Below are positions 1,350-59,911 of a stretch of DNA of 64,000 nucleotides, piece by piece. The notes under the pieces are model-generated. The model made no database searches, was not told the origin of the DNA, and worked only from the letters and a program-made list of their open reading frames with translations. The position numbers and the translations under genes are program-made. Each line of letters opens with the position of its first letter. Position 1 is the first letter of the stretch. The DNA comes from Pegea sp. RAD2-039 (lineage: Eukaryota; Chordata; Thaliacea; Salpida; Salpidae): NCBI GenBank assembly GCA_034620365.1, contig JAQGEQ010000255.1, positions 912,596-976,595 of the forward strand, in the 5' to 3' direction.

Positions 1350-1501
1350 TGAGTCACTAAATGCTAATAATCAAATAATTTGGATGAATTAAAGAAGTAA
1401 GTGAAAAGGTCATAAAATACAAATGAAATCAAATCTAAACAAGCTAACTGTAGTAAGTTATAAATGAAAATCTTATCGTGACGCCGCAGGATATGACGTC
1501 A
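1350..1501 (+). promoter_or_regulatory. AP-1 plus CRE block, unit 1
   Basis: TGAGTCA at 1350-1356 follows an ACCGCAGTATTTTATAATCC lead-in that resembles the one before the TATA block. A perfect palindromic CRE, TGACGTCA, lies at 1494-1501 in the context GGATATGACGTCATAGACTC. These are consensus bZIP sites; occupancy is inferred. Confidence 0.5.
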
Positions 1502-3952: not shown

Positions 3953-4054
3953 TCATACCAGCTTATACAACACATGGCTGATAGTGAACAATTGTATAAT
4001 AGTAAAAAGCGAATACTGAAGAATAAGATCTCAGAAAATGGTGAAAAATCTTCA
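3953..4054 (+). pseudogene. Exon-like block beta of the repeat gene, unit 1
   Basis: A pyrimidine-rich tract and AG (3951-3952) precede 34 open codons beginning SYQLIQHMADSEQLYNSKKR and rich in lysine. A GTATGA donor-like site follows at 4055. The block recurs in units 2, 6 and 7 with synonymous or conservative changes. In unit 4 a TAG interrupts it (after GEQL, near 15,871). Function unknown. Most copies of the gene are decayed, hence the pseudogene label. Confidence 0.35.
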
Positions 4055-4446
4055 GTATGATCAAGTGTTTAATATTGTGAGTTAAATTCTTTTATTGTTG
4101 TATTCATTAATAATAAGTTGAAGTAGTTTTAAAGTGATTTTATATATGGTTATATTTCCTTTATTATTTTATTTCTGTTACATCTATACCAAATAAACTA
4201 ATATATCCTTTTTATATACTTATGAAAAGATTAAGTTTAGCCAATTGATTTATAATTTAAATTACCATTTTTAATAACTTTCTGTTAGATCTGGACCAAA
4301 TAAACTAATATATCCTTTTTCTTAAGTTATGAAGATATTTTCTTTAGTTGATTGATAATATTGGTTTTTCAAAACTCTTCAAAATTGATTTATCCTAATC
4401 ATTTGGTTTAATTAGTATAATTTATCTAAATTGAATTAGTTTGCAG

Positions 4447-11196: not shown

Positions 11197-12103
11197 TACA
11201 CTCTTCTTCTGGTAGAATTTTAGTGATGACAACTTGTTGATTCAGTTTTATTAATTAAATACCATAATGAAGAATAGATTATCTTTTTTAGAATGAAAGG
11301 ATGTATAGTTATCGTTAAACTTTTTAGTTTGACAAGGTTGAAAATGAAATCTTATATCGCTCGTTTGGTGTACTGTTAGTGCTGATAACTTTACGATTCA
11401 TTCTCCATCTAGCAAAGATGATGGTGAAGAACATATTTCCAATTTTATACATCAAATGAAAACTCAATTATAGATAACTTAAATAGCATATAAATGTTCT
11501 TAAAGTTTTTGGTACATAAATAAAAAAAAATCTTTCAAAACATACGTTTCAGTACTTTTGTTAGAGATTACAATTACTATAATAACTATAAAAATAACTT
11601 TATATAAGAACAACAATTTAAGTTAAGCGAAGTAAAATCAGTTGAAAAAATCTTACTCAGAAAGATAAGTAATATTAGTTTAAAGAAAATACAAATTGAT
11701 CTATACTTATTATTAGGAAATTCATGTTTTATTTTCAAAGCACCGAATACTATTATCTTTACTTTATATTGTTATATATATTAAGTTTTACGACAATTTC
11801 AAAACAAATTCAAAACACAGCGTCTTATCGAATCCCTTAAAAGATCTTAATGAGTATTGGAATGAATCACTTAACTCGGCAGATTTGTACTAATCATAAT
11901 ACAAACTGCTACTACAGAGTCTAGATCATTCTTTCTAAAGATTAAATTGCAATAAAGATACAAATCGTAAAAAACTAAATCACAAACTTATTTACATACT
12001 AATTAATTTGAATTATTTTGTTTCAACTTTGTGTAAATGCTGTGGATAAAATTAGACTTTCTAGAAATTTGTTTTAATTGCAACAGAATACCGCTGCAGT
12101 TGA

Positions 12104-12119
12104 TATATAAGATGACTCA
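12104..12119 (+). promoter_or_regulatory. TATA box fused to AP-1 site, unit 4
   Basis: TATATAAG at 12104-12111 and TGACTCA at 12113-12119. Confidence 0.58.
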
Positions 12120-13228
12120 TCAAATACACACAATTCAGTATAGAGCTGAAAAATTTTAAACAATTGAGTGTATCGAGCTGTATAGGTTAAATTAAAGAAG
12201 ATAATAGAATTATTAGTTGTTATATTACATCAAAATTAAAATAAAAAAACAACATCGAAACCAATAACGAAGAATTACCACAAGTAATATCTACTATGAC
12301 AAAGTTAAACATGATAAGCTACTTTTCTAGCAACTATTTAGCACATAACACCTAACGATTAAGTTGTTGGTTATCACACAGAGCAATAGTATTTCTTTTT
12401 TACCTTATTCGAACTGCTCTTTCAATAAAACTCATTTTTAGCAATAAAATCAGTTGTAGATATAAAATTTAATTGCCATGTTATATTGGTATTTCCATTG
12501 TTTTAATATATGTAAAAAGTGAGCTATTATAAGTATTTAAATTATTACACTTAGTTCATGTGCTTTGCACTAGGTAGACCAAAACAAGTTTGTGTATTAA
12601 TAATTCTAAATACCAAATCCAAACTTTTTTCGAGAACTCGTTGGTATGCTAATTAATTAAGAGCACTAACTTGACAATGCTTCTTACTCGATAAAAGACA
12701 AGAGAAAAGGCATCAAAAACATTCCTTTGTATACTTTGTTTACTATTCATTAAACAGAATGTTAAAAAAATAAATATATGTCGAATTGAAAAAATTATTA
12801 AACCTTTTAAATTTGCTTTTGAATTTTTTTACTAATGATGTTGTAGAGATGTAACAAATTTTAAATCTTTCTGTACTAATCAAAAAAAAATTACTAAATT
12901 GATTGTTTCAGTTTGTAGATTTTGACAAAAAATAATATTTTATCAATTTCAGCACAAATCACAAATCACAAAAAAAATCATGAAACCAAATACTACAATG
13001 TCATAAAATTTTAATTAAATATTTCAAAAGAACAAGGTAAAAGCTGAGATAATATTAAGTTAAAAAGTTAGTTTTGACATTTACTGTTTAACTAATAGTT
13101 TATTAATTTTTAACTGTTCGTTTAATATAAATTTAAACTGTACTAATATACTACTATTATGGTAATACTACACTTTATAGAGATTTACTTCAGATAAATA
13201 AAAAAACCGCAGTATTTTATAATCCAAA

Positions 13229-13380
13229 TGAGTCACTAAATGCTAATAATCAAATAATTTGGATGAAATAAAGAAGTAAGTGAAAAGGTCATTAAATACA
13301 AATGAAATCAAATCTAAACAAGCTAACTGTAGTAAGTTATAAATGAAAATCTTATCGTGACGCAGCAGGATATGACGTCA
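13229..13380 (+). promoter_or_regulatory. AP-1 plus CRE block, unit 4
   Basis: TGAGTCA at 13229-13235 and TGACGTCA at 13373-13380. Confidence 0.5.
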
Positions 13381-14830
13381 TAGACTCTTCTTCTGATTGA
13401 CTTTTAGTACTGATGACTTGATGATTCAGTTTTATTAATTAAACAATATAATGAAGGATAGATTATCATTTTTAAGAATAAAAGGATGTTTAGCTATTAA
13501 TAAACTTATTAGTTTGACAAGGTTGAAATTAAGTCATAAACCGCTTTTTTGGTGTACTGTTAACGCTGATAATTTAACGATTCACTTTTCATCTTAAAGA
13601 TGATGGTGAAGAACATATTTCCCATTTCATACATCAAATGAAAACTGAATTATGGATAAAATAAATAGCTGATAAATTTTCTTAAAGTTTTTGAAACTTA
13701 AATTTAAAAAAATATTTTAAAAAATAACTTTCCATACTTGGGTTATAAATTACAATTACTACAATAGATATGAAAAAATACTTTAGACAACAACTCGAGT
13801 TAAAAGAAGTAAATCCATTTGTAAGAATCTTATTTTTACGGATAAGTAATGTTAGTTTAAAGAAAATAGAATTTGATCTATATTTATTATTAGGAAATTC
13901 ATGATTTTTTTCAGAAGAACCTAATACTAATCAATTTGCCTTTTTTAAAATAACTTTTCAGAAACCTCCTAAGTAGTTAAAATCTCAAACTCTGTTTAAA
14001 TATCTGCCGATATTGATTAAAATAATTTTTTAATAATTCCTTTTGTCTTTTGAAAAGTTTAAAATCATCTTAAAACAACTTTTAACGTACTTTTAAGTTT
14101 TTAATAAAGCAAAAATACCATTTTCATTGCAATTTATATAAAGGCTTGTAACAAATTGTTGTTAAATTACTTAATATTTTTAGGCCACAAAAATAAAAGT
14201 ACTAATAGTTTATTTTACAACTGTAGTACGTCATTTTTATTTTTCCCTATTTACTTAGTATTTGTTTTCATGCAATTTCCATAATGATTTATAATCTATT
14301 AAAATAATGTTTATAATTTTGCTAAAACTTAAAATTTACTATAAGAAGATTATTTTAGATTTAAATAATTGAGAAATCAGATAATTTTTGAAGTATTATT
14401 ATTTATTTAATCTTATAAGTATTTATTTAAATATAAATCATTAGTTTTGAGAGTTAATATTTTGTCCTTTTAATTTAAAAAATGTTTTTTTTCTTATGGA
14501 TTTTTTACTATAGAGTTCTCTTTATGAATTTTTCTACTTAAATAAAAAGTATTTATGTTTTTTAAGCTAGAAATTTGAGATATATTTTAATTTATTTTAG
14601 TCCATACTCTATTTTTTAGATTTCTGTTTTTTAATCATAAAGCAAGTTTTGTATCACACTTTTATAAAGTTATAAATTATTTCAAAAGTATACTTAAAGA
14701 TTTATGAATTTTAACTAAATCTTTAAACAGTATAATTAATAATAATAAACTTACTTTTACATTTAGAAAGGATAATTATATTTAAATTTTTTATTTTTTC
14801 AGGTTTTACTATTTAGTGATTATCTAATGA

Positions 14831-15016
14831 ATGAATATTATGGTAATGGTTGATATATTAAATGAAATCTTTGTTTTAATCAAAAAGGAGTACTTTAAAC
14901 AGAAGTTTGATAGATTTGGTTTGTATGCAAATTTTGATTTAATTAGTTTGATAAATTCTGAATTTAAGAGTTTGTTTATATTTATTTCAAGTTCTATTTT
15001 TCATTTAGATTTATAA
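14831..15016 (+). CDS. Small conserved repeat ORF, 61 codons, unit 4
   Basis: A-type copy; notable replacements are DGF to DRF and SISIF to SSSIF. Same length and flanks as the other full copies. Product unrecognised. Confidence 0.33.
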   Translation: MNIMVMVDILNEIFVLIKKEYFKQKFDRFGLYANFDLISLINSEFKSLFIFISSSIFHLDL

Positions 15017-15235
15017 ATTAAAAAGTTCAAAATGTATGTGAATGCGTTTAGTGTCTTAAGTTCATGTATTATTTATATCATAAAGACTCATTGTCCTTTA
15101 TCGTTATTAATTAACAACCTATTGTTGATTCAATGTTACATTTTTTTGCAATTTCAATTATGAACAAATAAGTATCAAGCTTGATAATAGCTGAAAGTAT
15201 TTCATTTTCAACTTCTTTGTTTTATGTGCTTTATA

Positions 15236-15514
15236 TCATCTTTCTTTTAAGGATGTTTGTTTTATAGTTGCTTCACTGATACCTGTTTGTTCATAAACTT
15301 TACTCAAAAATTTAGAATTTAGTTTAAATTTGACACAATGTCCTATAAACAGATTATAGAATATTATATTTATAGTATTTATGAAACATTGCTTATTTAA
15401 AAGTTTTGATATTCTTTTACCTTTTTCTTGAAAATAACTCTTAGCTGATTGTTGTGAAGTTAGTTTTTTCAACCTATGATTTAGATTTGCTGTAATCTCT
15501 TTTCTACAATTCAA
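15236..15514 (-). pseudogene. Antisense open frame with helix-turn-helix-like motif, unit 4
   Basis: A 92-codon open frame on the minus strand, without an ATG at its head (its first codon is TTG). It can be extended upstream about 20 codons further. It is lysine-rich at the start and ends FLSKVYEQTGISEATIK, which looks like the recognition half of a helix-turn-helix domain. It lies in the interval between the + strand 61-codon ORF and block beta, that is, in a putative intron. No family could be assigned. It may be an exon or remnant of a transposon or transcription-factor gene. Confidence 0.35.
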
Positions 15515-16600
15515 TTGAAATAATTTTCTTTTTAAAATAGTTGTTAGTAAGACAACAATGAAGTTTTTGGATTTTTAATTGACTTTTATAGCTGAAGATA
15601 AACTCATAAATATCTAATAAGTTTGTTGAATGTTAGTTAAAATGTATTCTGCTAACTGCTTTGAAACTTATGTTTAATGTTACTTTTTATTGATCATAAG
15701 ATTTAATGAAATTATAACACAACTTACATTTGTCAAACAACCTCTAACTAAGTAGAAGAAGTAATTAAGATTTTAAATGAAACATCAGAAGAAGACTTAT
15801 AACTTGTTCTTTCAATCGTTTTTTAGTCATACCAGCTAATACAACACATGGCTGATGGTGAACAATTGTAGGATAGTAAAAAGCGAATACAGAAGAAAAA
15901 GATCTCAGAAAATAGGAGATTTCTTCATTATGATCAAGTGGTTAATATAGTGAGTTAAATTCTTTTATTGTTGTATTCATTAATAATAAGTTGAATTAGT
16001 TTTAAAGTGATTTTATATAAATGGGCTAAATTTCCATAACTATTATATTTCAATTACATCTAAACCAAATAAACTAATATATCATTTTGATATACTTATG
16101 AAAATATTTAGTTTATCTGATGTAAAATATTGACTTTTAAAAATTCTTCAAAATCGATTTATACTAATCATTTGGTTTAATTAGTATACTTTATCTAAAT
16201 TGAATTAGTTTGCAGATTGAATGAAAGAAAAGAAACATCATAAGGTTTATTGTTTACAACATTCAAACTAAAGTGGAGACAAATTATGATGCTTTCAGGA
16301 AGCAACTTTCTTATAAAATCAGAATAAACAGAAGAAGTAAGAGAACAATCTCTTTTCAGGTAACTATTTAAAAGTAATCGTCAAAATCTAACTATAATGT
16401 TCAATCAACAGGTGTTGTAGAATACAAACTTAGTTCAAGTGATATTTCTCCTCAGTGACGTCAGTAAAGATGTAAGTGATGCCATCTGCAAACTGTCTTG
16501 CTGATCAGTGCAAGCTGAAACTCTGATTCAAACCTAAAATTTGTGGAAAGATTTGGAGAAAAAACATTCAAGTTAACTTCTTTTAATTTAAAAATGTCAG

Positions 16601-18172: not shown

Positions 18173-19079
18173 TTCACTTTTCTTCTGGTAAACTTTTAGT
18201 GCTGACAACTTGATGATTGTGTTTTATTAATTAAATACCATAATGAAGAATAGATTATCTTTTTTAGAATGAAAGAATGTATAGTTATCGTAAAACTTTT
18301 TAGTTTGACAAGGTTGAAAATGATATCTTATATCGTTCTTTTGGTGTACTGTTAGTGCTGATAACTTTACGATTCATTTTCCATCTAACAAAGATGATGG
18401 TGAAGAACATATTTCCCATTTTATACATCAAATGAAAACTCAATTATAGATAACTTAAATAGCATATAAATGTTCTTAAAGTTTTTGGTACATAAATAAA
18501 ATAAAATCTTTCAAAACATACGTTTCAGTACTTTTGTTAGAGATTACAATTACTATAATGACTATAAAAATAATTTTATATAAGAACAACAATTTAAGTT
18601 AAGCGAAGTAAAATCAGTTGAAAAAATCTTACTCAGAAAGATAAGTAATATCAGTTTAAAGAAAATACAAATTGATCTATACTTATTATTAGGAAATTCA
18701 TGTTTTATTTTCAAAGCACCTAATACTAATACCTTTGCTTTATATTGTTATATATATTAAGGTTTACGACAATTTCAAAACAAATTCAAAACACAGCGTC
18801 TTATCGAATCCCTTAAAAGATCTTAATGAGTATTGGAATGAATCACTTAACTCGGCAGATTTGTACTAATCGTAATACAAACTGCTACTACAGAGTCTAG
18901 ATCATTCTTTCTAAAGATTAAACTGCAATAAAGATACAAATCGTAAAAAATTAAATCATAAACTTATTTACATACTAATTAATTTGAATTATTTTGTTTC
19001 AACTTTGTGTAAATGCTGTGGATAAAATTAGACTTTCTAGAAATTTGTTTTAATTGCAACAGAATACCGCTGCAATTGG

Positions 19080-19095
19080 TATATAAGATGACTCA
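19080..19095 (+). promoter_or_regulatory. TATA box fused to AP-1 site, unit 6
   Basis: TATATAAG at 19080-19087 and TGACTCA at 19089-19095. The base before the TATA run differs from other copies but both motifs are perfect. Confidence 0.57.
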
Positions 19096-20202
19096 TCAAA
19101 TACACACAATTCAGTATAGAGCTGAACAATTTTAAACAATTGTGTGTATAGAGCTGATATTGTTAAATTAAAGAAGATAATAGAATTATTAGTTGTTATA
19201 TTACATCAAAATTAAAATAAAAAAACAACATCGAAACCAATAACGAAGAATTACCACAAGTAATATCTACTATGACAAAGTTAAACATGAAAAGCTACTT
19301 TTCTAGCAACTATTTAGCATATACCACTTAAAGATTAAGTTGTTGGTTATCGCACAGAGCAATAGTATTTCTTTTTTACCTTATTCGAACTGCTCTTTCA
19401 ATAAATCTCATTGTTAGCAATAAAATCAGTTGTAGATATAAAATTTAATTGCCACGTTATATTGGTATTACCATTGTTTTAATATATGTAAGAAGTAAGC
19501 TATTATAAGTATTTAAATTATTACACTTAGTTCATGTGCTTTGCACTAGGTAGACCAAAACAAGTTTGTGTATTAATAACTCTAAATACCAAATCCAAAC
19601 TTTTTTCGAGAACTCGTTGGTATGCTAATTAATTAAGAGCACTAACATGACAATGCTTCTTACTCGATAAAAGACAAGAGAAAAGGCGTCAAAAACATTC
19701 CTTTGTATACTTTGTTTACTATTCATTAAACAGAACGTTAAAAAATAAATATATGTCGAATTGAAAAAAGTATTAAACCTTTTAAAATTTGCTTTTGAAT
19801 TTTTTTACTAATGATGTTGTAGAGATGTAGCAAATTTTAAATCTTTCTGTACTAATCAAAAAAAATTCCTAAATTGATTTTTTCAGTTTGTAGATTTGTA
19901 CACAAAATAATATTTTATCAATTGCAGCACAAATCACAAATCACAAAAAAAATCATGAAACCAAATACTACAATGTCATAAAATGTTAATTAAATATTTC
20001 AAAAGAACAAGATAAGAGCTGAGATAATGTTAAGTTAGAAAGTTAGTTTTGACATTAACTGTTTAACTAATAGTTTATTAATTTTTAACTGTTCGTTTAA
20101 TATAAATTTAAACTGTACTATTATACTACTATTATAGTAATACTACACTTTATAGAGATTTACTTCAGATAAATAAAAAACCGCTGTATTTTATAATCCA
20201 AA

Positions 20203-20354
20203 TGAGTCACATAATGGTAATAATCAAATAATTTGGATGAATTAAAGAAGTAAGTGAAAAGGTCATTAAATACAAATGAGATCAAGTCTAAACAAGCTAA
20301 CTGTAGTAAGTTATAAATGAAAATCTTATCGTGACGCAGCAGGATATGACGTCA
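20203..20354 (+). promoter_or_regulatory. AP-1 plus CRE block, unit 6
   Basis: TGAGTCA at 20203-20209 and TGACGTCA at 20347-20354. Confidence 0.5.
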
Positions 20355-21812
20355 TAGACTCTTCTTCTGGTTGAATTTTAGTGCTGATCACTTGGTGATT
20401 CAGTTTTATTAATTAAACAATATAATGAAGGATAGATTATCAATTTTAAGAATAAAAGGATGTTTAGCTATTAATAAACTTATTAGTTTGACTAGGTTGA
20501 AATTAAGTCATAAACCGCTTTTTTGGTGTACTGTTAACGCTGATAAATTAACAATTCATTTTTCATCTTAAAGATGATGGTGAAGAACATATTTCCCATT
20601 TCATACATCAAATGAAAACTGAATTATGGATAAAATAAATAGCTGATAAATTTTCTTAAAGTTTTTGAAACTTAAATTTAAAAAAATATTAAAAAAAATA
20701 ACTTTCCATACTTGGGTTATAAATTACAATTACTACAATAGATATGAAAAAATACTTTAGATAAGAACAACAACTTGAGTTAAAAGAAGTAAAATCGTTT
20801 GTAAGAATCTTACTTTGACAGATAAGTAATATTAGTTTAAAGAAAATAGAATTTGATCTATAATTATTATTAGGAAACTCATGATTTTTTTTCAAAAGAA
20901 CCTAATACTAATATATTTGCCTTTTTTAAAATAACTTTTCAGAAACCTCCTAAGTAGTTAAAATCTCAAACTCTGTTTAAATATCTGCCGATATTGATTA
21001 AAATAATTTTTTAATAATTCCTTTTGTCTTTTGAAAAGTTTAAATTCATCTTAAAACAACTTTTAACTTACTTTTAAGTTTTTAATAAAGCAAAAATACC
21101 ATTTTCATTGCAATTTATATAAAGGCTTGTAACAAATTGTTGTTAAATTACTTAATATTTTTAGGCCACTAAAAATAAAAGTACTAATAGTTTATTTTAC
21201 TACTGTAGTACGTCATTTTTATTTTTCCCTATGTACTTAGTATTTGTTTTCATGCAATTTCCATAATGGTTTGCAATCTATTAAAATATTGTTTATAATT
21301 TTGCTAAAACTTCAAATGTACTATTAGAATATTATTTTAGATTTTAATAGTTGAGAAATTAGGTAATTATTTAAGTATTATTAATTATTTAATGTTATAA
21401 GTATTTATTTAAATATAAATCATTAGTTTTGAGAGTTAATATTTTGTCCTTTTAATTTAAAAAATGTTTTTTTTCTTATGGATTTTTTACTATAGAGTTC
21501 TCTTTATGAATTTTTCTACTTAAATAAAAAGTATTTATGTTTTTTAAACTAGAAATTTTAGATATATTTTAATTTATTTTACTCCATATACTATTTTTTA
21601 AATTTCTATTTTTTAATCATAAAGCAAGTTTTGTATCACACTTTTATATAGTTATAAATTATTTCAAAAGTATACTTAAAGATTTATGAATTTTAACTAA
21701 ATCTTTAAATAGTATTATTAATAATAATAAACTTACTTTTACATTTAGAAAGGATAATTATATTTAAATTTTTTGTTTTTTCAGGTTTTACCATTTAGTA
21801 ATTATCTAATGG

Positions 21813-21998
21813 ATGAATATTATGGTAATGGTTGATATATTAAATGAAATCTTTGTTTTAATTAAAAAGGAGTACTTTAAACAGAAGTTTGGTGGATTTG
21901 GTTTGTATGCAAATTTTGATTTAATAAGTTTGATAACTTCTGAATTTAAGAGTTTGTTTATATTTATTTCAATTTCAATTTTTCATTTAGATTTATAA
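21813..21998 (+). CDS. Small conserved repeat ORF, 61 codons, unit 6
   Basis: A-type copy with DGF to GGF and ITSEF. The length is identical to the other full copies. Product unrecognised. Confidence 0.33.
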   Translation: MNIMVMVDILNEIFVLIKKEYFKQKFGGFGLYANFDLISLITSEFKSLFIFISISIFHLDL

Positions 21999-22217
21999 AT
22001 TAAAAAGTTCATAATGTCTGTGAATGCGTTTGATGTCTTGAGTTCATGTATTATTTATATCATAATGACTCATTGTCCTTTATTGTGATTAATAAACAAC
22101 CTATTGTTGATATGATGTTACCTTTTGTTGGGATTTCAATTATGAACAAATAAGTATCAAGTTTGATAATAGCTGATAGTATTTCATTTTCAATTTCTTT
22201 GTTTTATGTGCTTTATA

Positions 22218-22496
22218 TCATCTTTCTTTTAAGGATGTTTGTTTTATAGTTGCTTCACTGATACCTGTTTGTTCATAAACTTTACTCAAAAATTTAGAAT
22301 TTAGTTTAAATTTGACACAATGTCCTATAAACAGATTATAGATTATTATATTTATAGTATTTATGAAACATTGCTTATTTAAAAGTTTTGATATTCTTTT
22401 ACCTTTTTCTTGAAAATAACCCTTAGCTGATTTTTGTGAAGTTAGTTTTTTCAACCTATGATTTAGATTTGCTGTAATCTTTTTTCTACAATTCAA
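22218..22496 (-). pseudogene. Antisense open frame with helix-turn-helix-like motif, unit 6
   Basis: Second intact copy of the minus-strand frame, with a handful of replacements relative to unit 4 (for example KEI to KKI and SQQSAKS to SQKSAKG). In units 1, 2 and 7 the corresponding stretch is closed by stops. Confidence 0.35.
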
Positions 22497-23589
22497 TTGA
22501 AATAATTTTCTTTTTAAAATAGTTGTTAGTAAGACAACAATGAAGTTTTTGGATTTTTAATTGACTTTTATAGCTAAAGACAGATTCATCAATATTTAAT
22601 AAGTTTGTTGAATGTTAATTAAAATGTATTCTGCTAACTGCTTTGAAACTTATGTTTAATGTTACTTTATATTGATCATAAGATTTAACAAAAATATGAC
22701 ACACATTACATTTGTCAAACAACCTCCAACTAAGTAGAAGAAGTAATTAAGATTTTAAATGAAACATCAGAAGAAGACATATAACTTTTTCTTTCAAATG
22801 TTTTTTAGTCATACCAGCTTACACAACACATGACTGATGGTGAACAATTGTATGATAGTAAAAAGCGAATACAGAAGAAAAAGATCTCAGAAAATAGTGA
22901 AAATTCTTCAGTATGATCAAGTGGTTAATATTGTGAGTTAAATTCTTTTATTGTTGTATTCATTAATAATAAGTTGAATTAGTTTTAAAGTGATTTTATA
23001 TAAATGGGCTAAATTTACATTACTATTATATTTCAATTACATCTTTACCAAATAAACTAAAATATCATTTTTATATACTTATGAAAATATTTAGTTTATC
23101 TGATGTAAAATATTGATTTTTAAAAATTCTTCAAAATCGATTTATCCTAATTATTTGGTTTAATTAGTTTACTTTATCTAAATTGATTTTTTTGTAGAAT
23201 GAATGAAAGAAAAGAAACATCATAAGGTTTATTGTTTACAATATTCAAACTAAAGTGGAAACAAATTATGATGCTTTCAGGAAGCAACTTTCTTATGAAT
23301 CAGAATAAACAGAAGAAGTAAGAGAACAATCTCTTTTCAGGTAACTATTTAAAAGTAATAGTCAAAATCTAACTATAATGTTCAATCAACAGGTCTGGTA
23401 GAATACAAACTTAATTCAAGTGATATTTTTCCTCACTGACGTCAGTAAAGATTTACAGACACAAGTGATGCCATCTGCAAACTGTCTTGCTGATCAGTGC
23501 AAGCTGAAACTCTGATTCAAACCTAAAATTTGTGGAAAGATTTGGAGAAAAAACATTCAAGATAACTTCTTTTAATTTAAAAATGTCAG

Positions 23590-31918: not shown

Positions 31919-32776
31919 TTAGTCATCATTTTCTACAAACCATGTGAGTACTTCATACGAGCTCCATACATTTTTAGTTACAAATTCGTACTTTGATATA
32001 TCATCTAAAGTCTGTTGATCAACTGCATCAGTTTGTAGACAACTTCCAGTAAACAAGTGAGCATTTTGGCTGAAATTTGGAAATTTCTTTTGGTGCTCTG
32101 GTTTGAGTGGTAGAGGAAAGTTTCCTTCTGCTAACTCAATTATAATCAAGCCAAGTGACCAAAGAAAATCCAAAGAGTTTTGGTTTCTGTTTTCTCGTTG
32201 TTCTGGAGCGTGATAGCAATTTAAGGAAGTAGCATCTTCGTGGCGTAGATATCCAAAATCCGCTAATTTAAATTCTCCTTTAGAATTTAAATATATGTTT
32301 GAAGGATGAACAATTGAATTAGAAACATCAACATCTAACTTTTCCAAATATTTCAAAGCAGCTATAATTGATTTTGCCATATTAGCTAAGACACCTTCGC
32401 AAAGCACACAAAACTTGCTTTTAATTTCACATAAGCTCCCAAATTTCATATACTCATAATAAACGTAAGTATCAGTGAGCTGGTTATCAATCTTACAAAA
32501 TCCTGTAACATTTTGATGGCTAGTCAAAACTGTAAGAAAGCTCTGGTGGTTTGGTGATAACTTCTTAAGAAGTTTTGCTTGTACTAATTGAGTATTTGTC
32601 TTCACAGTTGTTACCAATCTCATCAATTCAAAATGTTGATTATTTGTTGCCAATATCTTTTTATGCTTAATATCCGCCGTATTCAGCAAGATCTCGCCAA
32701 CATAAACTCTTAAATGATGTTTTGTTTTACAAGTTTTTGAAACATCGAAAACAGAAACTTTTTCTTTCTTTTCCAT
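31919..32776 (-). CDS. MAP2K-like pseudokinase, single exon
   Basis: This encodes 285 residues with a protein-kinase fold most like the MAP kinase kinase (MEK/MKK) group. The start is ATG at 32776 in a good context (CAAGATGG), with TAA at 31919-31921. Visible landmarks are the VTTVK segment (about 55-59, possible beta-3 strand), YYEYMKFGSL (hinge, about 106-115), SNSIVHPSNIYLNSKGEFKL (catalytic-loop region), DFG at 173-175, HAPEQ at 189-193 in place of APE, and DFLWSLGLIIIELAEGNFPLPL (subdomain IX onward). The catalytic loop is the oddity: MAP2Ks read HRDVKPSN, but here H157 is followed directly by PSN, an exact four-residue loss of the catalytic Asp and Lys. No glycine-rich loop is visible. 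It should be catalytically dead and act, if at all, as a scaffold or allosteric partner. The intronless frame suggests a retrocopy. The frame is intact, so it is not a simple pseudogene. Confidence 0.8.
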   Translation of the reverse strand: MEKKEKVSVFDVSKTCKTKHHLRVYVGEILLNTADIKHKKILATNNQHFELMRLVTTVKTNTQLVQAKLLKKLSPNHQSFLTVLTSHQNVTGFCKIDNQLTDTYVYYEYMKFGSLCEIKSKFCVLCEGVLANMAKSIIAALKYLEKLDVDVSNSIVHPSNIYLNSKGEFKLADFGYLRHEDATSLNCYHAPEQRENRNQNSLDFLWSLGLIIIELAEGNFPLPLKPEHQKKFPNFSQNAHLFTGSCLQTDAVDQQTLDDISKYEFVTKNVWSSYEVLTWFVENDD

Positions 32777-35700
32777 CTTGGTCAATTATTTCAATAAGAA
32801 CTTAAAAAACCTTAAGTAATTAGATTACTAAATTCTAAAACTAAAATATAATAATAATTTATAAGTAACCTTGCTATGCAAATTTTTATACTAAATTTGT
32901 TCTACTTTCACTTTATAATAAAAGAAGTGGGTAAGATTAAAACTTCCTAAGTATTGTATGTTTTTCTTATTTTTTTCGATATTCTCTCGATTCAATTACT
33001 GATGTTATAAAGTTCAATCTGAAAACGTTTACAAAATAAAACCGTAGTTCTAAGAGCTACAAGTTCAGATAAAATATGTGACTTTTTCTATAGAAACTGC
33101 TTGATATTAAATCTTACTTCCTGCTTTAATATTTCTCAAAACGTATCAATTTTATCCAAAATATTTTCTGGTTTCCTATTATTTAAGTTTCCTGTCAGTA
33201 TAAACATATTTATAAAGCTGCTTCAAAGGTCGTAAACTTGGTTGTACATAGCTTGATAGAGCCATATTTGTTCAAATTATTTAAATGTAGTTACTATAAC
33301 ACAGTAGAGCAAAAAACTAATCTTTTATTAAAAAAAGAATTATTATAAAATATCACATAATAACCAAACTAATCACTTGCTTTATGTTAAATAAGACTGA
33401 TTGTGAACATAATTTAGATATGTTTCACTCTTTTCAAATATACAAGAAATTTATACTCTGAATCAAATTCTAACACTTGAAAAAAGTATCCTTTTAGTCT
33501 TTTAAGTCGTCTTTGAATTGAAATTCTTTACAAAACAATATAGGTCAAACCTAATGAAGAGCATAAAATCCTTTTTGCTAAGTTTCAACAAACACTAACA
33601 TCATTTCTAAAATTATAATGGACTAATATCAAAAATTATTTTGGCTTAGAGTAACCAGTCTAAAGAACAACCTTTTTTTAAATAATAAACATTAATAACA
33701 TGTTTGTCAAAAGTTTATTCAACTTAGTTAATTTATTATTCCCGTTGTTATTCTTTTAATTTTGATAGTAAAACTCTTTTCTTTTTCATTAAATTTTAAA
33801 ATATTATTAGAAAAAAGTCTCTTTTAAATTACTTTCGTAATTTAGCATGGTAGCATTATAAATTAATTTGTCTTTGACATTTCAAGTAATCTGTTTTTAT
33901 TTGCATTTTATTTACATTAAAATGTTAAAAACTTTAGTCAAAGTACAATGATTAAACCTTGTAATTTCTATCTGTAGTATCAAGTCCAAAATTTATCTTT
34001 TGATTATCTTACCAATTATTCAAAACCTATTTTCAAAACAGATGTTATATATTATCGATTTTGTTTTCTACTTTCAGCTTTCAAATAACATAAGATTCGT
34101 TTTAATCAAAATAACTATTACATAGCTTATTGATTTTCTTATATTAATCATTTGATCTTTAAAATTTCTTTTAAAACAATTATTAAAATGTCTGAGCGTT
34201 ATACCATTTTGAAAACTCTACAAATAATATAAGCAAGCAAGAAAATTAGATAAATCTTATTTATAAGGTTTACAATTTTTTTTAACAGCTTAATGAAAGA
34301 CAAATTAAATATATTTTTCAAAAATCTAAGATTACAAATAAATTTGAACTAAAAATTTGAGTTCTGCTTTACCCACTTTCAATTTGTTAGTTATATATGT
34401 ATTTTATTTATATTTTACTTTATTTTAAAACTATTATCTCTTACAGAAGTGTAGTTTTTTCAACCATAACAAAATTTTTAATCTCAGCAATACTTTTCTT
34501 AATTTAGTGCAAATCTAAAAAGGCAAAAGCTTTTTGAAACTATTTACAAGCTTACATTGTGAGAAATGAAATCTGATTTTGGAAACATTGAAAATAAAGG
34601 TTTAATAAAGCAGATTTTTAAATTATCTAAGATAGATTGTTGTAATTAGTTTATATCTTTACATCTTATACTGAGTTTTAAACTATAAACACTCAAGCTC
34701 ACCAGTAATTTTGTCATACTTGCAAACTTACTAATTATGTAAATGGTTTAATGTTGATTTGTATTTTGCTTTTTTTGTTTAAATGCTATACGAGTTTATC
34801 TGTCAATATACATTTTTTGTATAAATTATTGTAAATTACAACCACTGTAAAAGACACATAAATTGATTTTTAAATGATATCATCCTTATTTGTAAGATTT
34901 CTCAGTATTAAACATCGATTGTAACAAGTTTGAATCTTAGATAAACCATTAGTTTGGTGATTCAGGTTAACTTAATGATAAAAATTGTGATAAAAAGTCA
35001 TGGGAAATTTATTTAGAAGTTAAATATATAATAACTAAAATGAAAAAAGAAAATATTTATGTGAAAATAGTCAACAGTTTTATGTGAGTGAAGATTTACT
35101 TTAAAGTGTGTACATCTATGTTAACAAATTTAAAAGGTTTTCTTAATGATAAGGATGAATAAATCACTAACGTAAAATACTAACATGAAAATGATGACAA
35201 AGAAACTTTTTTATAAATTTATTTGATTAAACATTATTCATTCAAGAAGTACTTTTTAGTAATTTTTAGAACTAGAATTTTAGTTCATTAAACAATTCAA
35301 GTTTACTGTATACGAATGTATCATATAGCTTCAAAAAACTTAACTTTGTTTTATGTAGAACGTATTTGCTCACAATATTCTTATTCATTTATTCCAAACA
35401 AAACTTTAAAATTAAGTTAAAAAAACTTATATAAAACTATTAAAATCGTTTTTAGAGATTGTATTTGTAAACTATACATAAATTTGCTTGATTTAAATCT
35501 GGTAAGATTTTAATTTGATTCATATTTATTTTTGCTAATAAAATTTCTTAAAAGATTTAGAAAACTGTTTTTTATTTCAAACTAAGTTTAAGGTTTAAAA
35601 GCAACAAAAAACAATTTTGTTTTTTTGACTTTAGACCCTATATAACTTTATCAAACATCTGTTTTTTATATGATAAAGAAACTTTCTTAAACATTATTTG

Positions 35701-38799: not shown

Positions 38800-40325
38800 T
38801 TAATCTTGCTTGGTGTCATCTATGACGTAAGACTTACTAAAAGATTAAAAAAAAGTATCTTTAAAACTTACTTGTGAATTTTAAGATGTCTTGTTAGGTA
38901 GTCAGATCGAGCAAAACTTTTACCGCAACAATGACACATGTATGGTTTACTTCCATCATGTATTTGATGATGACGTTTCAGCTCTTGAGCTCGCAAAAAC
39001 GTCCAAGAACACGAAGGGTATTCACAATGGTAAGGTTTGTATCGAGAGTTACTTCTACAAAACATTAAAAGTCAGCTCACACTTTACTTGTTTAATATAT
39101 ACCTTTTATTCGGTCTCAGATTACATTTGGTTTTTACTTTTTTCGAACTTTTCTTAGATTTGGAAGTGACCTTTTTCTTCAACGGTTTCGTATTCACAGG
39201 ATCACTAATTGTAGATCCTGGAGTAACTCCAGTAGCCAAGCCAACTTGTTGAGCTGAAACCGAAGGCGATGGTGCAGTCATCGTCAGGGGTATATGTGAC
39301 CCAGGTAACACTATGACTTGGTTTTGGGTGGCGATAGGGACCATTTGGGCAAAGATAATTGGGATCAATTGGCCATTAAGCAGCATGAAAATGGAATTTG
39401 GGTTCGCCGCTGTCAGTGTCAAGGGTTGAGTTTGGTTAGCAGGGATAGTCTGAGCAGGATTTGTTTCTTGGATGTCTGTTGTAGTCTGAGTGGATTGATT
39501 TGTTAGCTCCTTAGGTTGAGACGAAGTGATTTCTGCAGAGACTGGTTTTTCATAACCTACTATACAGCTATCACACAGTAATGATTGATGCTCAGTTTCA
39601 CCTTTACAAGCCCAGCAGGAATTTAGCATAGATGATAGGTCAATCGTAGGGACAGAGCTTTCTAAATGAAGGTCTTTATCAGTTGTGGGCTGATCCACGT
39701 GTCCACCTGTGACATGGTCCACCATTGAAGGCTGCTGATTGACAACAGGTTCCGTCTGCAACGCTATCGATTCTTCGTTGACTCGTAAATGGTTGTCATT
39801 ACTGCCAGTGCTTGGGACCATGTTTACTTGTGCAGGTTGTTCCTCGTCGACAAAAAACGAATTGTTTAATGGAGCTTCCTCCGAGGGGTTGCCCACTGCA
39901 TCCATTTCTTGATTCAAACCAGGTAATTCTTCCATACCAAATGCTGATAAGATAGAATCGAGCTCAGATATACCTAAATCAGATGGTGCTTCATCATTAC
40001 TAATCTCTTTAAAAGTAAGATCAACATTTGTACTCAGACTACTCATATCATCTTGCGATGTCATACTTAGATCATGGATGTTCAACTCATTTTCGAAGGA
40101 GTTTTCTGAACTAAAAATGCTATCTGGATCAGAAAATGCCGCCAGATCATCTGGGTCTGGCTCAGAATCCCACGAAACGACGTCACTACCCAGACTGCAG
40201 GAAGTTGTTGAGCACAAATCGATCAAATTTGGTGAAATATCCTCAAAAGGTGTTCGCTGATTGGTAAATGGTTTGGTTACAAAGTTTTTAGCTGGGAGTT
40301 GTGGTGACAATGTAGGTATTTCCAT
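38800..40325 (-). CDS. KLF/Sp-like C2H2 transcription factor, two zinc fingers
   Basis: Three exons (40325-39103, 39054-38872, 38836-38800) join in phase to 480 residues. Introns are 48 nt (39055-39102, GTATAT...TTTTGTAG) and 35 nt (38837-38871, GTAAGT...CTTTTAG). If the second intron is retained, the protein simply ends HLKIHK at 38868. The N-terminus is acidic and Ser/Asp-rich (about 45-165), typical of an activation domain. C237, C240, C251 and C254 make a C-x2-C-x10-C-x2-C motif. A Gln/Thr-rich hydrophobic stretch follows (about 280-360), then a Lys-rich nuclear signal (382-400). Finger 1 is C418-x4-C423-x12-H436-x3-H440 and finger 2 is C448-x2-C451-x12-H464-x3-H468. The linker DGSKPY is non-canonical. 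The SWTFLRAQELKRH and SFARSDYLTRH segments resemble KLF fingers 2 and 3, but the usual first of three fingers is missing. It is presumably a nuclear DNA-binding activator. A GC-richer 5' UTR lies upstream. Subfamily is uncertain. Confidence 0.85.
38837..38871 (-). other. 35-nt intron of the KLF-like gene
   Basis: A perfect GTAAGT donor directly after CACAA, then a T-run and CTTTTAG. Splicing replaces the immediate stop after HLKIHK by a 12-residue tail ending KQD. The strong splice sites favour it, but the alternative stop makes it unproven. Confidence 0.6.
39055..39102 (-). other. 48-nt intron of the KLF-like gene
   Basis: Starts GTATATATT after exon end AATAAAAG and ends TGTTTTGTAG. Removing it joins AG to A, giving arginine and restoring the frame into the zinc fingers. 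Confidence 0.8.
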
Positions 40326-53858: not shown

Positions 53859-54203
53859 TGAAGAAAATTCTCAACATAATATTGAAATTTTAAAATATGC
53901 AATTGAAAAATAAAATTTAAATTTTTACAGATTAAATCATTTATATAAAAAAAAATTATAATTTTTGATGCCTCATAGCTGTTCTAAGTAACGTCAAAAG
54001 AAAATAAATAAGAACGAGAAGAAAAGAACCAACCTCAATCTTAAGCTGAGTTTTTAAAGATACAAAACTCACAAGCTCATGTCTACTTGTTATGTTAGAG
54101 AAATAAAACTTTATTTCAATTCAACTGTGTACAAAACGACTGCTAAAAGTAAATACAAGTTTATATATATAAAGTTATAAATAAAACAGCTAATTAAAAA
54201 TTT

Positions 54204-54486
54204 AAAAAAGAAATGGGTCCAATCTTATTGGTTTGGCTGTGGCAGTTGTTTAGATATATCTGGCAGTGACGGAACTCAGCGAAATAAATCACGAAATAAG
54301 CAATAATAAATAAGAAATAATTAAAGGAATTAGCACGACCAGCACGCTAATTAGAAGTATAATGAAGAAGCAGAGTTCACAATGATACACAACCACAACT
54401 TAGCGCACACAGCTTCAAACCTCATACCGTCCACCATCTCAAGCCTCCCAGCAGCTGGATTACAAGCGCTCGCCACTGCGCCCGGC
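54204..54486 (-). ncRNA. 7SL (SRP RNA)-like gene with recognisable Alu domain and helix 5 but atypical S domain
   Basis: On the minus strand the transcript would start GCCGGGCGCAGTGGCGAGCG at 54486 and continue CTTGTAATCCAGCTGCTGGG. This closely matches the 5' Alu domain of metazoan 7SL, including the UGUAA element bound by SRP9/14. It ends with GACCCATTTC followed by T6 (54209-54204), like the 7SL 3' end and a Pol III terminator; length is about 280 nt. By hand folding, the two ends form a helix 5: RNA positions 47-53 with 271-277, 66-71 with 252-257, 74-79 with 246-251, 87-91 with 239-243, 98-103 with 227-232, 107-110 with 218-221, and 111-114 with 210-213. Between them, where the SRP54-binding helix 8 with its GGAA tetraloop should lie, the RNA is U-rich with one small hairpin, and I find no helix-8 motif. 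It may be a 7SL-derived RNA, a partly converted pseudogene, or a strongly diverged SRP RNA. Confidence 0.75.
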
Positions 54487-54509
54487 GAAAGTTAGTTTGT
54501 AAAATAAAT

Positions 54510-54516
54510 CTTATAG
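54510..54516 (-). promoter_or_regulatory. TATA box of the 7SL-like gene
   Basis: CTATAAG on the minus strand, about 24 to 30 bases before the first base of the RNA. This is the spacing expected of an upstream Pol III TATA element. Confidence 0.5.
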
Positions 54517-57052
54517 TTAAATTTCTCTATGTAAAATTCTCTGGCAAAAATACTTTCCCTTTTTTGCTTTTTAACCTACGAAACAAATAAAAAAATATTT
54601 TGTTCTTTCTAGTTTAATGTATAAAAACCATTAACTAATTTTGCAAACTTATGTCAGCAGAACTCTAGCAGCTATTACTAAACTTGTAGTAACTTTGGAT
54701 TGGAAATTTACCACAAAAAGCTATAAGTATTTTCACGAAACTCTAAACTTGATAATTAATTTTGTAATCATCAGTTTCAGTTGACCGAAAACCTTTTTTA
54801 AATACAATTATTCTTGTTTTGTTGTATTTAGCAAGATTGAAAATTACAAGTATTATTTAAACCCTGCAAAATGTCACAAATGTAAGTAATATTCTCATTG
54901 AAGAAAATGTTTGCTTTACATCCCAATTATACTTTTTTTAAGACTATCTTCTGTGTAATTACAATATCAATAAAATAAAATTCGCGACAAATGTTCTTTA
55001 AAGTTTGGTTTGTTGTTGATCTTATATTGATAAAAACAGATTTTATTTTTGATTATCAGAAAATCTGAAAAAGTTCTATAAGATTTAATTACAAGAAAGA
55101 ACTATTTAAAACATCATGTTTGACATAGAATGTTAAAAAAAATCAAAGTAATTAGAAACATCAAATGCATGTCATTGAGTTTTTTTCAAATAAACAACTC
55201 ATTGGTGAAGCCAAATCTCTTAAAAAGGTTTTTAAGCTTAAAAAGTTACTTCTACTTTGAAAAACTTTTCTGATTCAAGCATCACTGCTCTACTGCCGAA
55301 GGCAAAATATGTATTTATTCTAATAACTTTTCAATTGTTTCCAAAATGATTTTCATGCCTTGACTTGTTAAGTCTTTTTACAAACTTCTGTTCAAATATC
55401 ACAAGAATTGTGTTTGAACTTTCGAGACCTTGTAGCTGGCTTTATTTATGATTGTATCATGAAAAAAGTTTACTTGAAAAGCAATATCAAAGACAATTTT
55501 AATTTACTAAATTTTTGTTTATCAACTTTCTAGTTTTTGTTTACAAAGTACAAACACACACAATACTATCATAAAAGTATTGGAACAGTTTTTAGATTGT
55601 TTTAAACAAACTTTCAAAATTTTTTTTAAATTGTATAGTTAAATAATACGTTGTATTAATTCTTTTACAATACTTATTCTAACTGAAGCAATTTTTCCAA
55701 TTGATTGCAAACAGCATCTTAAGCAAAATAAATGTAATTAAAACAGAACTAAGTTGTAGTTCTTGATTATTTAAATCTTAATTGCAACTAACTTTTCATG
55801 CATTTGTAAATAAAGATCGAACTCATTACAATGAACATGACATGATGACGTAAGATTGAAAAATAAAACTTGAAAAAAATTACAGATTAATTTTTAACCC
55901 TTAAGAACTTAAAGTCGTCGTTAACGTATTTATAATTAGTTAATCATAATTGTTGTGATAATCGTTTAATATATATGCAAGACAGACTTAAAAAAAGTTG
56001 TCATAAAACAGCTTGGTTTCTATTAGAATTTAAAAATAATGCAAACTAAAATGATATTGAATAAAGTCAACTTTAAACAACTTAATAATCAAGAAGCTTT
56101 ATTTAGTAAAAAAATTGTTTCATGAGAGGCATGTAAAGGTTAGTCTTGTCTTCATCCTTACTTTTTAACCACAATAATATTTTACAGATATTTTGAGTTA
56201 TCATGATTGTTTAGAATAAAAAACAATTAGTGTCTTGAAGTTGAATTCTTGTTGAAAATTGATTGTATTTTTAATTTTATCATAAAAATGAAGTTATAAT
56301 ACCATAAGAATATTTTAAGACCAAATTTTTATTATTTTTCAAATAAATTAACGAACTAAATTTTAGTAAAAACCAATTTTAAAATAAGCTATAGAAAATA
56401 TACAAATATTTCTGAAAATTTTTATTATTATTTAGTTCTTTTAGTTGAAACTTTCTAATAGTAATGATAAAATCAGCACAGATGAAACCAATCAAGCGAA
56501 CAGAAGTTTTGATAAAGAAAGAGATGAAACTTTAGAAAACAGCAAATTTAACTTTAATCGAGTTAAATCGTTGTTCATTATCAAGCTATTTCTAACAATT
56601 ATTTGAAGTAAAATGCTATCATTAAATTAAACTTGTTTAAAAAGTTATGTTCTTAAAAAGTGATCTACTTTTGCCAATCATATTTCTTAAAGTCTATGAT
56701 TACTAAGTTTATGATTACTTCAATCAATTAAATTTGTTTTAAACTTTTTTTTGAATTTGTCATTTGTTTTTGCATTTAGATTTCTGTAAGAAGTTTGAAA
56801 GCATTGTTTGAAAAGAAAATGTTCTCATATAGTTGAATTTAAAATATAAATGTTAGTAAATTTCTTTAATATAAGCTGAAAATGAAAGAAAAATTTGTGT
56901 TTTCCTAGATAGTCGACGAAAACTAAAATATACTTTTTTATGTTCAGCTAATGATAAGTCAGTTTTATTAATCTTCTTTTGTTTATCTAAACGTTAAAAA
57001 CAATTTATTTTTAATTAAACAAAACCTACTTTGAATTTTGGAGAGAAGTTTT
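54517..57052. other. AT-rich spacer
   Basis: No gene I can support. A single ATF/CRE-like site TGACGTAA occurs at about 55,845. Confidence 0.55.
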
Positions 57053-57741
57053 ATGAGTGAGAAGAAAAAAATTGCCTCAACGAAAAAAGGATTTTTTTAT
57101 CGAAGTTTCATCAGCAGTTTGTTTGAAAGTTATTCCCATTTACCTCGTGTTCTCGCAGAAAATCTCAAACGTAAGTTGATATTTAAGTTGATTCATTAAA
57201 TTTAGATTGTAAAATTATAATGTCTTTGCTTTTCAGGTACAAAAAGATGATTGAAGATAGAAACTCTCCTCAGGATTTGTTGAAAAAAGAAGTGAATGAT
57301 CTTGAGATCAAGATTAGCAACTTCTTTATACTGAGGTTGCTATGGATTGAAAATTTAAAATCTAAACAAGTTGAGCTCATGGAACGCATTGATGAAGCAA
57401 GAATATTGTTTCCAGAGGCGGAAATTGCTTCCCAGTCAAGATTAAACAGAGCTTTTGAAGCTTTCTTTAATACGACAAGAGATCAGATTAATGAACGTTC
57501 AGCTGATTTTAACCCCAGCTATTATGTAACTTGCAAGAATATGTTGGATATTTTTGATACCTGTGGGCGGGAGATGGCTGCTTTGCTACCCAGAAGAATT
57601 TACAATGCCTTTGATCGTTTTAAAAGAAACAAGACGAGGTTTTTTAGAAAGATTGGGCTTCAAGGCAATGAGATTGATAATACACTGTTAACAGTGTATT
57701 ATCAGAAAATGGATGTGATCGAGCATTTGGAGGATGTGTAA
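57053..57741 (+). CDS. Unrecognised 217-residue helical protein, two exons
   Basis: Exon 1 (57053-57170) encodes MSEKKKIASTKKGFFYRSFI and 19 more residues. A 35-nt intron (57171-57205, GTAAGT...AATTTAG) is followed by exon 2 (57206-57741), giving an exactly in-phase 217-residue product. A stronger-looking acceptor (TTTGCTTTTCAG, ending 57,236) would shift the frame into an early TGA, so the nearer AG is preferred. An internal ATG at 57220 would give 173 residues. The protein is highly charged and mostly helical: a basic N-terminus, a Leu/Glu/Lys-rich stretch at about 60-105 that could be a short coiled coil, a mixed aromatic middle (130-160) and an Arg/Lys-rich segment (169-188). There is no signal peptide or membrane span. 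Poly(A) signals lie at 57822 and 57833. No family recognised; the frame is intact and composition differs from its surroundings, so I consider it real. Confidence 0.65.
57171..57205 (+). other. 35-nt intron of the 217-residue protein gene
   Basis: GTAAGT donor and AAATTTAG acceptor. It has exactly the same length as the second intron of the KLF-like gene. Retaining it would break the reading frame. Confidence 0.65.
57675..57704. repeat. Perfect 30-bp palindrome inside a coding sequence
   Basis: TGATAATACACTGTT is followed directly by its exact reverse complement, with no spacer and no mismatch. It encodes residues 197-206 (DNTLLTVYYQ) of the 217-residue protein. Confidence 0.97.
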
Positions 57742-57841
57742 GAAGACACTGATTGATTCACAAAAAAATCGAAATTAATTTCTCAATTACTTTTCAGTTA
57801 GTTTGAAATCAAGTTGTAATCAATAAAGTTTTAATAAAACA

Positions 57842-58526
57842 AATTCCTTATCTGATCAATGTTTTAGTAGAAAATATCTTCGATAAATTCTTTTGCTCCA
57901 GAAGTTTTCGAAAAATTTGAGAGATTTAAGTTGATGATTATCTGATTTTCAAAAATGCTCAAACTTCAGAAAGAAACAAATCAACTTTTAGTTATTAAAT
58001 TTAAAATTTGGGCTTCAAACTTAGAAAGATAAGACACAATTTCTACTTACAAAAAGTAATTTCAGTTTAATGCTGGTTTAATTAGAATACGACGAGAATG
58101 GTTTATTTATAAAATAGAAATTAATAACTTTTCTTCAATGTGAACACTTTCTGCAGAGGTCAAAAACGTTTACAATTACCACCTGCTTCTATCCTCTTCT
58201 TTAAAATATCCAATTTATATAAAATATAAATAACAAGTCAACATATAAAGTCATATAGACTGTTTCATTGTTGTTTTCAAAGTAAATTTAGTCAATAAAG
58301 GTCGTGAGTGTATAAAAACACCACCTACTTAAACCTATGATCGGCTTTCGAAACAGTATAAGCTGATAGAAAACGAATTCTTTTTAACCAAATAAGGGTT
58401 GTTTTATGAGAAAACCTGGAAGAGAAAACTATGATGCAGATAGCAAGGATATCATTAAAAAATCAAAATTTTCAAATTAAATAATTTTGAATTTATACTT
58501 TTGATTTGCAAATTTAATGTCTTATC
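57842..58526. other. AT-rich spacer downstream of the 217-residue protein gene
   Basis: No open frame or repeat that I can support. Confidence 0.55.
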
Positions 58527-59911
58527 GACTTGTGAATACTTGCTACATTGTTAATAGCTACTTAGAGAAATAATAATTGCTATAGAAACCAATTATTGAG
58601 TATTTTCGTAGAGAAGATACAAAAGTAGTAATACAATAATTACATCTTATATGAAATCAAAAAGAACAGATTTTTAAAAGTTAAAAATGATAAAACCAAG
58701 AGTTTGAAATTCGTGAAATCTTGATCTCAATCTTTTTTTGTGTTTGTAGAATCAACAAACTTTAAGAAAGTCAATCACTATACACTACGTTTTATTTGAT
58801 GAAAGTTGGTTGTTATCTCAACTACTGTTAGTACTAGAAACAATTTTTATTAAACATTATGAATCATACGATTCTGCTTATAGGTGGTCCTAAGTTTTAT
58901 GTATGTATGTGGTTGACACGAAGATGACAGCAGCACCTGCAACAACAAGTGAATACTTAAATATCTAAAATCGATTAATCATCACTAAAATATTCTGCTT
59001 ACTGTTGTAGTATACAGTTTCTTAAATTATAAATGTTTATGATTTAGAAAAAAGAGTTGCTTACTGTTGTTTGTAGGTTAAAAACACATTTCAGTTTAAA
59101 AATAACAATTTTAACATTTTTTATCAATAGAATTACACTATTTTTAAAAGTGTTTATTTCTTACAGATTCTATGAAAGGTTTTTTACAAAAAATTTTAAT
59201 TGAATTTACATTAAAACTTTTTTTTTCAAACTGTGTAAGGTTTTTTGTTCAAACAAACAACTTCTATAAAACGAAATCAAATTTGAATTATTATCGAGTT
59301 TTCTAAGATATAGTAATAGTAAAACTCTCCGTATTGTTTCACTTGAATAAACACGATTTTCTGTCGAAATATTTCTATCATAAAGTATCAAACTGAAGTT
59401 ACTGAATCAAATATAAAAACAAAATTCAATCACAAACGATTAAACAATTTCTTATAGAGTCACAAAAGTCACATGATTAGTTTCAGAACTATTAGAAAGA
59501 CATTATTTCCTTTTTTTCTCAATCATCTTCTTCTCCACATAACAAAAATAGCCATGATAACGATAATGACTTCATTAAACTTCATCTTTGATGGTTGGTC
59601 GTTAATTTAATGAAAATTATTTCATAGTTTGTCACAAATGATATCTCATAGTTAAAACGAAAATTTTTATTGTGTAAGTTGGATTTTTTTCATTTTACTT
59701 CTAGATATACACCAAATAATTTCTAAGAACAAAGAATCAGTTGTAGAAATGCCGTTATCCAAGTTTGCGCGTGCTTATGTATTACGTCAATAATATTTTG
59801 AAAGGTTTAAACAGAGATAAGTAAAGTTATAAATGTTTAAATGATCTTCCAAACTAATATTCAATTAATCAATTTTTTAGTTTTATCAAAAGCAATTCAA
59901 ATTAAGAAAAA
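58527..59911. repeat. Dispersed repeat, copy A
   Basis: About 1.38 kb, alignable by eye with copy B from CGACTTGT to the shared tail TTTTATCAAAAGCAATTCAA. The best-conserved core (about 58,860-59,010) contains GGTTGACACGAAGATGACAG and GCAGCACCTGCAACAACAAG. A segment of about 240 bp (roughly 59,375-59,615) is absent from copy B. The CRE pair of copy B is decayed here (TGCCGTTA and, at 59782, TTACGTCA). Confidence 0.85.

Follow-up and report, generated by a model that had tools for sequence, protein, structure and literature searches.

A family of 7SL-like RNA genes with a replaced S domain in the salp Pegea sp. RAD2-039

We found that the genome of the salp Pegea sp. RAD2-039 carries at least 42 full-length genes that resemble 7SL, the SRP RNA, at both ends but lack its S domain. 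They fall into three classes, A (16 genes), B (24) and C (2), and the total is a lower bound, as each of the class DNA searches scored 40 of 77–91 candidates. One of the class C genes lies in the window, by which we mean the whole stretch of 64,000 nucleotides analysed here (C58:912596-976595). Judging by their sequences, we propose that these genes encode functional Alu-particle RNAs that act outside the SRP, a reading to which we assign a probability of about 0.6.

The window gene keeps both ends of 7SL

The window comes from an AT-rich assembly of 105.7 Mb in 387 contigs, and its own GC content is 23–32% across 4-kb bins. A first-pass annotation had described a 5′ Alu domain, a 3′ end, a T6 run and an upstream TATA at this locus. 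All were found, with both arms aligned by the Rfam model Metazoa_SRP (RF00017). The parts, and the evidence for each, are as follows.

54204..54486, minus strand: whole class C RNA gene, 283 nt including T6 (RF00017, 64.8 bits over model positions 1–299; identical copy on C53)
54441..54486, minus strand: 5′ Alu domain with helices 2–4, the UGU motif and the loops (RF00017 alignment; pairs kept in all 12 sequences of the alignment)
54402..54440, minus strand: 5′ arm of helix 5 (29 helix-5 pairs; alignment of all classes)
54254..54401, minus strand: replaced middle, 148 nt and 47% U, where the S domain would be (no SRP match; composition)
54210..54253, minus strand: 3′ arm of helix 5 and 7SL-type 3′ end (alignments)
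54204..54209, minus strand: T6, a Pol III-type terminator (sequence)
54510..54515, minus strand: TATA-like box TATAAG at −29 to −24 (sequence only)
54197..58612, no strand: stretch common to the window and C53, its left edge 7 bases outside the RNA gene on the 3′ side (blastn pieces of 97.4% and 99.5%; difference profile)

The match to Metazoa_SRP, obtained by scanning a 901-base stretch, had an E value of 6.8e-16, and the alignment ran through both arms and skipped the middle. Its score is about 5 bits below the Rfam gathering score of 70, and no Rfam hit at the gathering threshold was found within the whole window. Like a metazoan SRP RNA, the window gene has a 5′ Alu domain with the UGU motif and two loop–loop pairs, and a helix 5 formed by its two ends; it has no S domain with helices 6 and 8. 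Since it retains the two ends of 7SL, the gene still has the Alu fold, helix 5, a TATA-like box and a terminator, and it has lost the segment that carries helices 6 and 8.

The tip of the RNA had been described as U-rich and devoid of a helix 8 with a GGAA tetraloop, and our scans bear this out. No helix 8 aligned at the locus. The class C middle alone (54255-54402) matched no SRP family at E ≤ 10, nor did the middle of a class B copy or that of a class A copy, whereas the S domain of one canonical 7SL gene from the same genome, included in the same scan as a positive control, scored 142.7 bits with helix 8 aligned. Direct comparison of the middles with the canonical S domain gave no similarity beyond that of shuffled sequences, which did as well in 435 (class A), 616 (class B) and 678 (class C) of 1,000 cases.

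Elsewhere in the window, positions 1–29400 form a large tandem array that repeats about every 7 kb (1–4239, for instance, matches 11875–16115 and 18851–23098 at 95%), a 700-base piece of which recurs on C53. An open reading frame at 31919–32785 (minus strand) matches a protein kinase (Pfam PF00069, 60.1 bits), and another at 38871–39071 (minus strand) looks by eye like C2H2 zinc fingers.

Canonical 7SL genes lie elsewhere in the genome

A second locus with a canonical S domain was sought with RF00017 across the whole genome, in a search that scored 26 of 347 candidates. Among these 26 there were 25 matches: four canonical 7SL genes (263.4, 263.4, 263.4 and 256.5 bits) and 21 others at 58.2–83.2 bits. 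Sixteen of the 21 lower matches pass the cut-off and all 16 coincide with class A, a point of consequence for annotation, as these copies score above the Rfam SRP cut-off despite their missing S domain. Genes for SRP14 (84.1 bits) and SRP9 (26.4 bits, cut-off 21) were each found in one place. A genome search for COX1 gave no match, with 8 of 14 controls recovered; searches for Chitin_bind_4 and bantam gave none either, and there none of the controls was recovered.

Given the four canonical 7SL genes, we rejected the window gene as the SRP RNA of this genome, and there is no need to invoke an unusual SRP in the lineage, as had earlier been suggested. The other suggestion made for the locus, a free-standing Alu-domain RNA rather than a functional SRP RNA, is favoured by these four genes and by the place of the locus in a family with conserved RNA bodies.

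Three classes share an Alu domain and differ in their middles

Class A has at least 16 copies at 97% identity or more. Class B has at least 30 copies at 91% or more, 24 of them full length and 6 lacking 15 nt at the start, plus a fragment on C22. For class C, the matches listed comprise two identical full copies, on C58 (the window gene) and C53, and a fragment on C3. Contigs C72, C282 and C280 account for all 40 full-length class A and B copies. On C72 these copies are in minus orientation, and neighbouring copies of class A, B or D (described below) are 0.8–38 kb apart. A 10-kb piece of C72 contains a single complete open reading frame of at least 60 amino acids, which is 74 amino acids long.

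Both ends could be extracted for 36 of the 38 loci examined, and each of these genes begins with GCCGGGCG and has a UGU motif and a T run of 4–6; the extraction demanded near-intact ends, so this fraction is no measure of intactness in the whole family. The two misses were a fragment (L011) and a truncated copy (L018), and two other loci (L008 and L038) are one place. The concern that the window gene might be a silent pseudogene with many broken relatives is answered by its identical second copy and by the many full-length relatives, although broken relatives do exist. Half copies with the 5′ Alu part and no 3′ arm, which we call class D, travel in the arrays on C72, C282 and C94 (L040 7109-7211 and L065–L069) and are probably dead.

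Similarity between the middles is weak for classes A and B (27 of 1,000 shuffles as good) and for B and C (20 of 1,000), and for A and C it is not above chance (319 of 1,000). From the common helix-5 features and the weak likeness of the middles, we infer that the three classes are probably of one origin.

RNA bodies are more conserved than distant upstream flanks

We compared the RNA bodies with their flanks as mean pairwise differences among 20 class B and 9 class A copies. The bodies differed by 1.4–6.2% in class B and 0–4.8% in class A, compared with 9.8–19.2% and 11.6–16.8%, respectively, at −600 to −150. The near upstream region (−150 to 0) was almost as conserved as the body, with differences of 0–4.8% in class A and 2.0–9.4% in class B, which fits either a promoter or the copying of a larger unit. 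Downstream, class B differed by 17–25%, and class A by 3% over the first 30 nt and by 23–37% thereafter; because different sequence contexts join there, downstream flanks were not used as a neutral yardstick.

The two class C genes differ at 0 of 282 positions in the RNA and at 48 of 561 just upstream (12/138, 11/141, 11/141 and 14/141 in the next four upstream bins). This divergent patch, about 560 bases long and upstream of the gene, spans 54487-55051, and beyond 55,051 the bins differ by 0–5 per 141. Sharing between copies tends to break off shortly after the RNA gene's 3′ terminus, at 7 bases in class C and about 30 in class A, as if these 3′ ends were preferred breakpoints.

One alternative is that the array copies co-evolve by conversion and duplication and that their RNAs are at most functionless by-products. 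The copies do sit in arrays on few contigs, the promoter-near flank is conserved too, the arrays also carry truncated and half copies, and gene-limited conversion could look like constraint. We consider this account unlikely, as class C lies on two other contigs with an identical RNA yet 48 differences per 561 upstream positions, and the classes differ from one another by compensatory changes.

Pairing of helix 5 is supported by relatives of the window gene

A helix 5 of about 38 base pairs had been claimed for the window gene, and this claim held in part. Folded freely, the RNA gives a long, imperfect hairpin with an energy that does not surpass that of shuffled sequences (z 0.25; 117 of 200 shuffles equalled or bettered it), for which reason we rejected the free-energy fold as support for structure. 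By contrast, 29 helix-5 pairs are supported by an alignment of 12 sequences that represent the three classes and both canonical types. They belong to a 43-pair structure that also comprises the Alu helices and two loop–loop pairs of the Alu domain, whose placement is in part assumed. Across 516 cells, the 43 pairs form in 98.1%, compared with 38–49% when partners are slid by 1–3 columns, and the helix-5 pairs do so in 95–100% of cells per helix. None of 500 shuffles reached the covariation score of the structure, a test biased in its favour, as the prediction came from this very alignment. Two pairs changed on both sides, a number that 7 of 500 shuffles reached; one compensatory pair is G–C or G–U in canonical 7SL, A–U in the class A and B rows and U–A in class C. 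Within class B alone, none of 67 pairs had a compensatory change. The available part of one structural source describes canonical Alu domains as having a U-turn UGU motif recognised by SRP9/14 together with a loop–loop pseudoknot (PMC8137916).

Upstream of the genes, a stretch near −60 is common by eye to classes A and B, and the class B bin from −60 to −30 has only 2.0% differences. Among 13 U6 matches above the cut-off, six loci (L043–L048) all have ACAAACACTAAAC and a TATA box upstream, which makes ACAAACACTAAAC a candidate PSE of the lineage. This element was not seen by eye upstream of the 7SL-like genes, for which we rejected a U6-type promoter.

A 7SL-headed SINE occurs in the same genome

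Searching the genome with the head pattern (at most 3 mismatches) gave 83 hits, against 0 for the reversed control. Twenty loci were fetched and sorted by eye into 13 dispersed relatives (L050–L059 and L061–L063), 5 half copies on C72 and C94 (L065–L069) and 2 that resemble decayed canonical 7SL (L060 and L064). A common tail was present in 12 of the 13 dispersed head-selected loci, which thus combine, as SINE1 does, a 7SL head with a tail common to a LINE-like element; no clear target-site duplications were seen in their flanks by eye. L055 and L061 have the same internal deletion and the same flanks. The tail pattern gave 236 genome hits, of which 100 places were listed, and 0 in the control. 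In a non-random pick of 20 tail loci (L070–L089) judged by eye, 5 have a 7SL head (one truncated), 12 have another common upstream sequence and 3 have neither, which fits a SINE and a putative LINE-like partner.

The class B middle resembles 13 SINE copies with a mean z of 3.4, and for three of these copies none of 300 shuffles was as good; the corresponding mean z was 1.0 for class A, 1.4 for class C and −0.3 for the canonical S domain (L055, L058, L061, L063 and L072 were left out of this comparison). Fifteen SINE copies differ by 30% on average (20–45%). The new middle appears to be old and to predate the SINE. As the 7SL-like genes retain each of the two helix-5 strands along with a 7SL 3′ end, and have no retroposon tail, we rejected their descent from the SINE.

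The main functional rival to a role in translation control is a SINE antidote like mouse 4.5SH RNA, in which the RNA would pair with antisense copies of the 7SL-headed SINE in pre-mRNA and keep them from being used as exons. The genome does hold such a SINE with a class B-like middle, and, in the available parts of the sources, 4.5SH has a comparable array organisation (PMC7279448) and an antidote role (PMC10137851). Pairing would be weak, however, with 15 SINE copies 30% apart on average, and an antidote has no need for a conserved 3′ arm or for Alu pairing; we regard this role as improbable.

Two fragments, nt 4–164 of class C in L011 and nt 35–228 of class B in L041, are joined to a retroposon tail other than that of the SINE. 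Other loci carry this tail as well, and several of these are duplicated copies of a single insertion in an array. Both fragments look reverse-transcribed from class C and class B RNA, a hint of germline transcripts; template switching during reverse transcription would yield such joins, as could other routes. ARAGORN found no tRNA in L011, though a tRNA-like stretch is visible by eye. These joins, and a SINE with the same head and middle, would suit retroposon source genes, that is, selfish masters kept only through mobilisation of their RNA. Such a role is quite improbable for genes that end in a T run and have no tail, given also that the SINE copies are old (20–45% apart) and that few dispersed copies are recent (one fragment each of B and C among the matches listed).

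Discussion

That the family represents an additional type of SRP RNA, still engaged in targeting and with an S domain that escaped recognition, is very improbable, since, for all the 7SL-likeness of both ends and helix 5, the A, B and C middles match no SRP family and show no more likeness to the canonical S domain than shuffled sequences do, and canonical 7SL genes exist. Our preferred reading is that of Alu-particle RNAs outside the SRP. In 7SL, helices 6 and 8 bind SRP19 and SRP54. A 7SL paralogue with a replaced S domain would be transcribed by Pol III and its Alu domain would bind SRP9/14; the resulting particle could contact ribosomes through this domain while having no means of reading signal sequences and no access to the SRP receptor. 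A free Alu particle of this kind may tune translation, although translation control as its task is a suggestion about which we are rather doubtful. The class-specific U-rich middle might decide its partner, place or target, and dosage would be set by array copy number. An early relative that acquired a LINE-like tail would have spread as the 7SL-headed SINE.

More broadly, Alu particles may have been freed from the SRP in a non-vertebrate animal lineage independently of mammals, with the S domain swapped once, the middle diverging into classes, amplification in arrays, and an early relative founding an independent 7SL-headed SINE, a tentative history to which we give slightly less than an even chance. 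If true, it would amount to a naturally occurring series of Alu particles that contact ribosomes and differ at their tips. Comparing classes that combine one Alu domain with different middles allows the tip's role to be tested.

The family genes share with metazoan SRP RNA (7SL, RF00017) the 5′ Alu domain, helix 5, the 3′ end and the terminator T run. They are shorter, however, and lack helices 6 and 8, and classes B and C fall below the Rfam cut-off, whereas class A passes it on its arms. In their 7SL origin, retained Alu part and lost S domain, they agree with 7SL-derived Alu-domain RNAs of the BC200 and 4.5SH kind. BC200 of primates binds SRP9/14 and has a role in translation. It is, in the available part of the source, a free Alu-domain RNA outside the SRP (PMC4233971), and a free particle is predicted here; BC200 derives from an Alu element, whereas the family genes keep the 7SL 3′ arm and sit in multi-copy arrays or pairs. 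According to the accessible text of two sources, 4.5SH of mouse-like rodents is likewise 7SL-derived, with a TATA-like box, tandem units of several kb and a related SINE (PMC7279448, PMC10137851), but this rodent RNA is about 100 nt long and is thought to stem from a retroposed SINE, whereas here both 7SL ends accompany a new middle.

The dispersed relatives are like hagfish SINE1, which has a 7SL head and a tail common to LINE-like elements (PMC7245038, in the part available). Unlike SINE1, the window gene has no LINE-type or A-rich tail; it ends in T6, and the downstream sequence differs between its two copies. The same part of that source (Kojima 2020) lists evident 7SL-headed SINEs in Euarchontoglires and hagfish, putative marsupial cases and 7SL retrocopies in guinea pig. 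Published 7SL-derived RNAs and SINEs come chiefly from mammals, with hagfish in addition, and no title or abstract opening that we searched reported 7SL-derived RNA genes or SINEs outside vertebrates. Because the genes show no passage through a SINE, they would not belong to BC200 or 4.5SH by descent, and the best reading is that they work like BC200 or 4.5SH but have a separate origin. If this is an independent case, the Alu domain has been freed from the SRP more than once, and its role at the ribosome could be studied apart from protein targeting.
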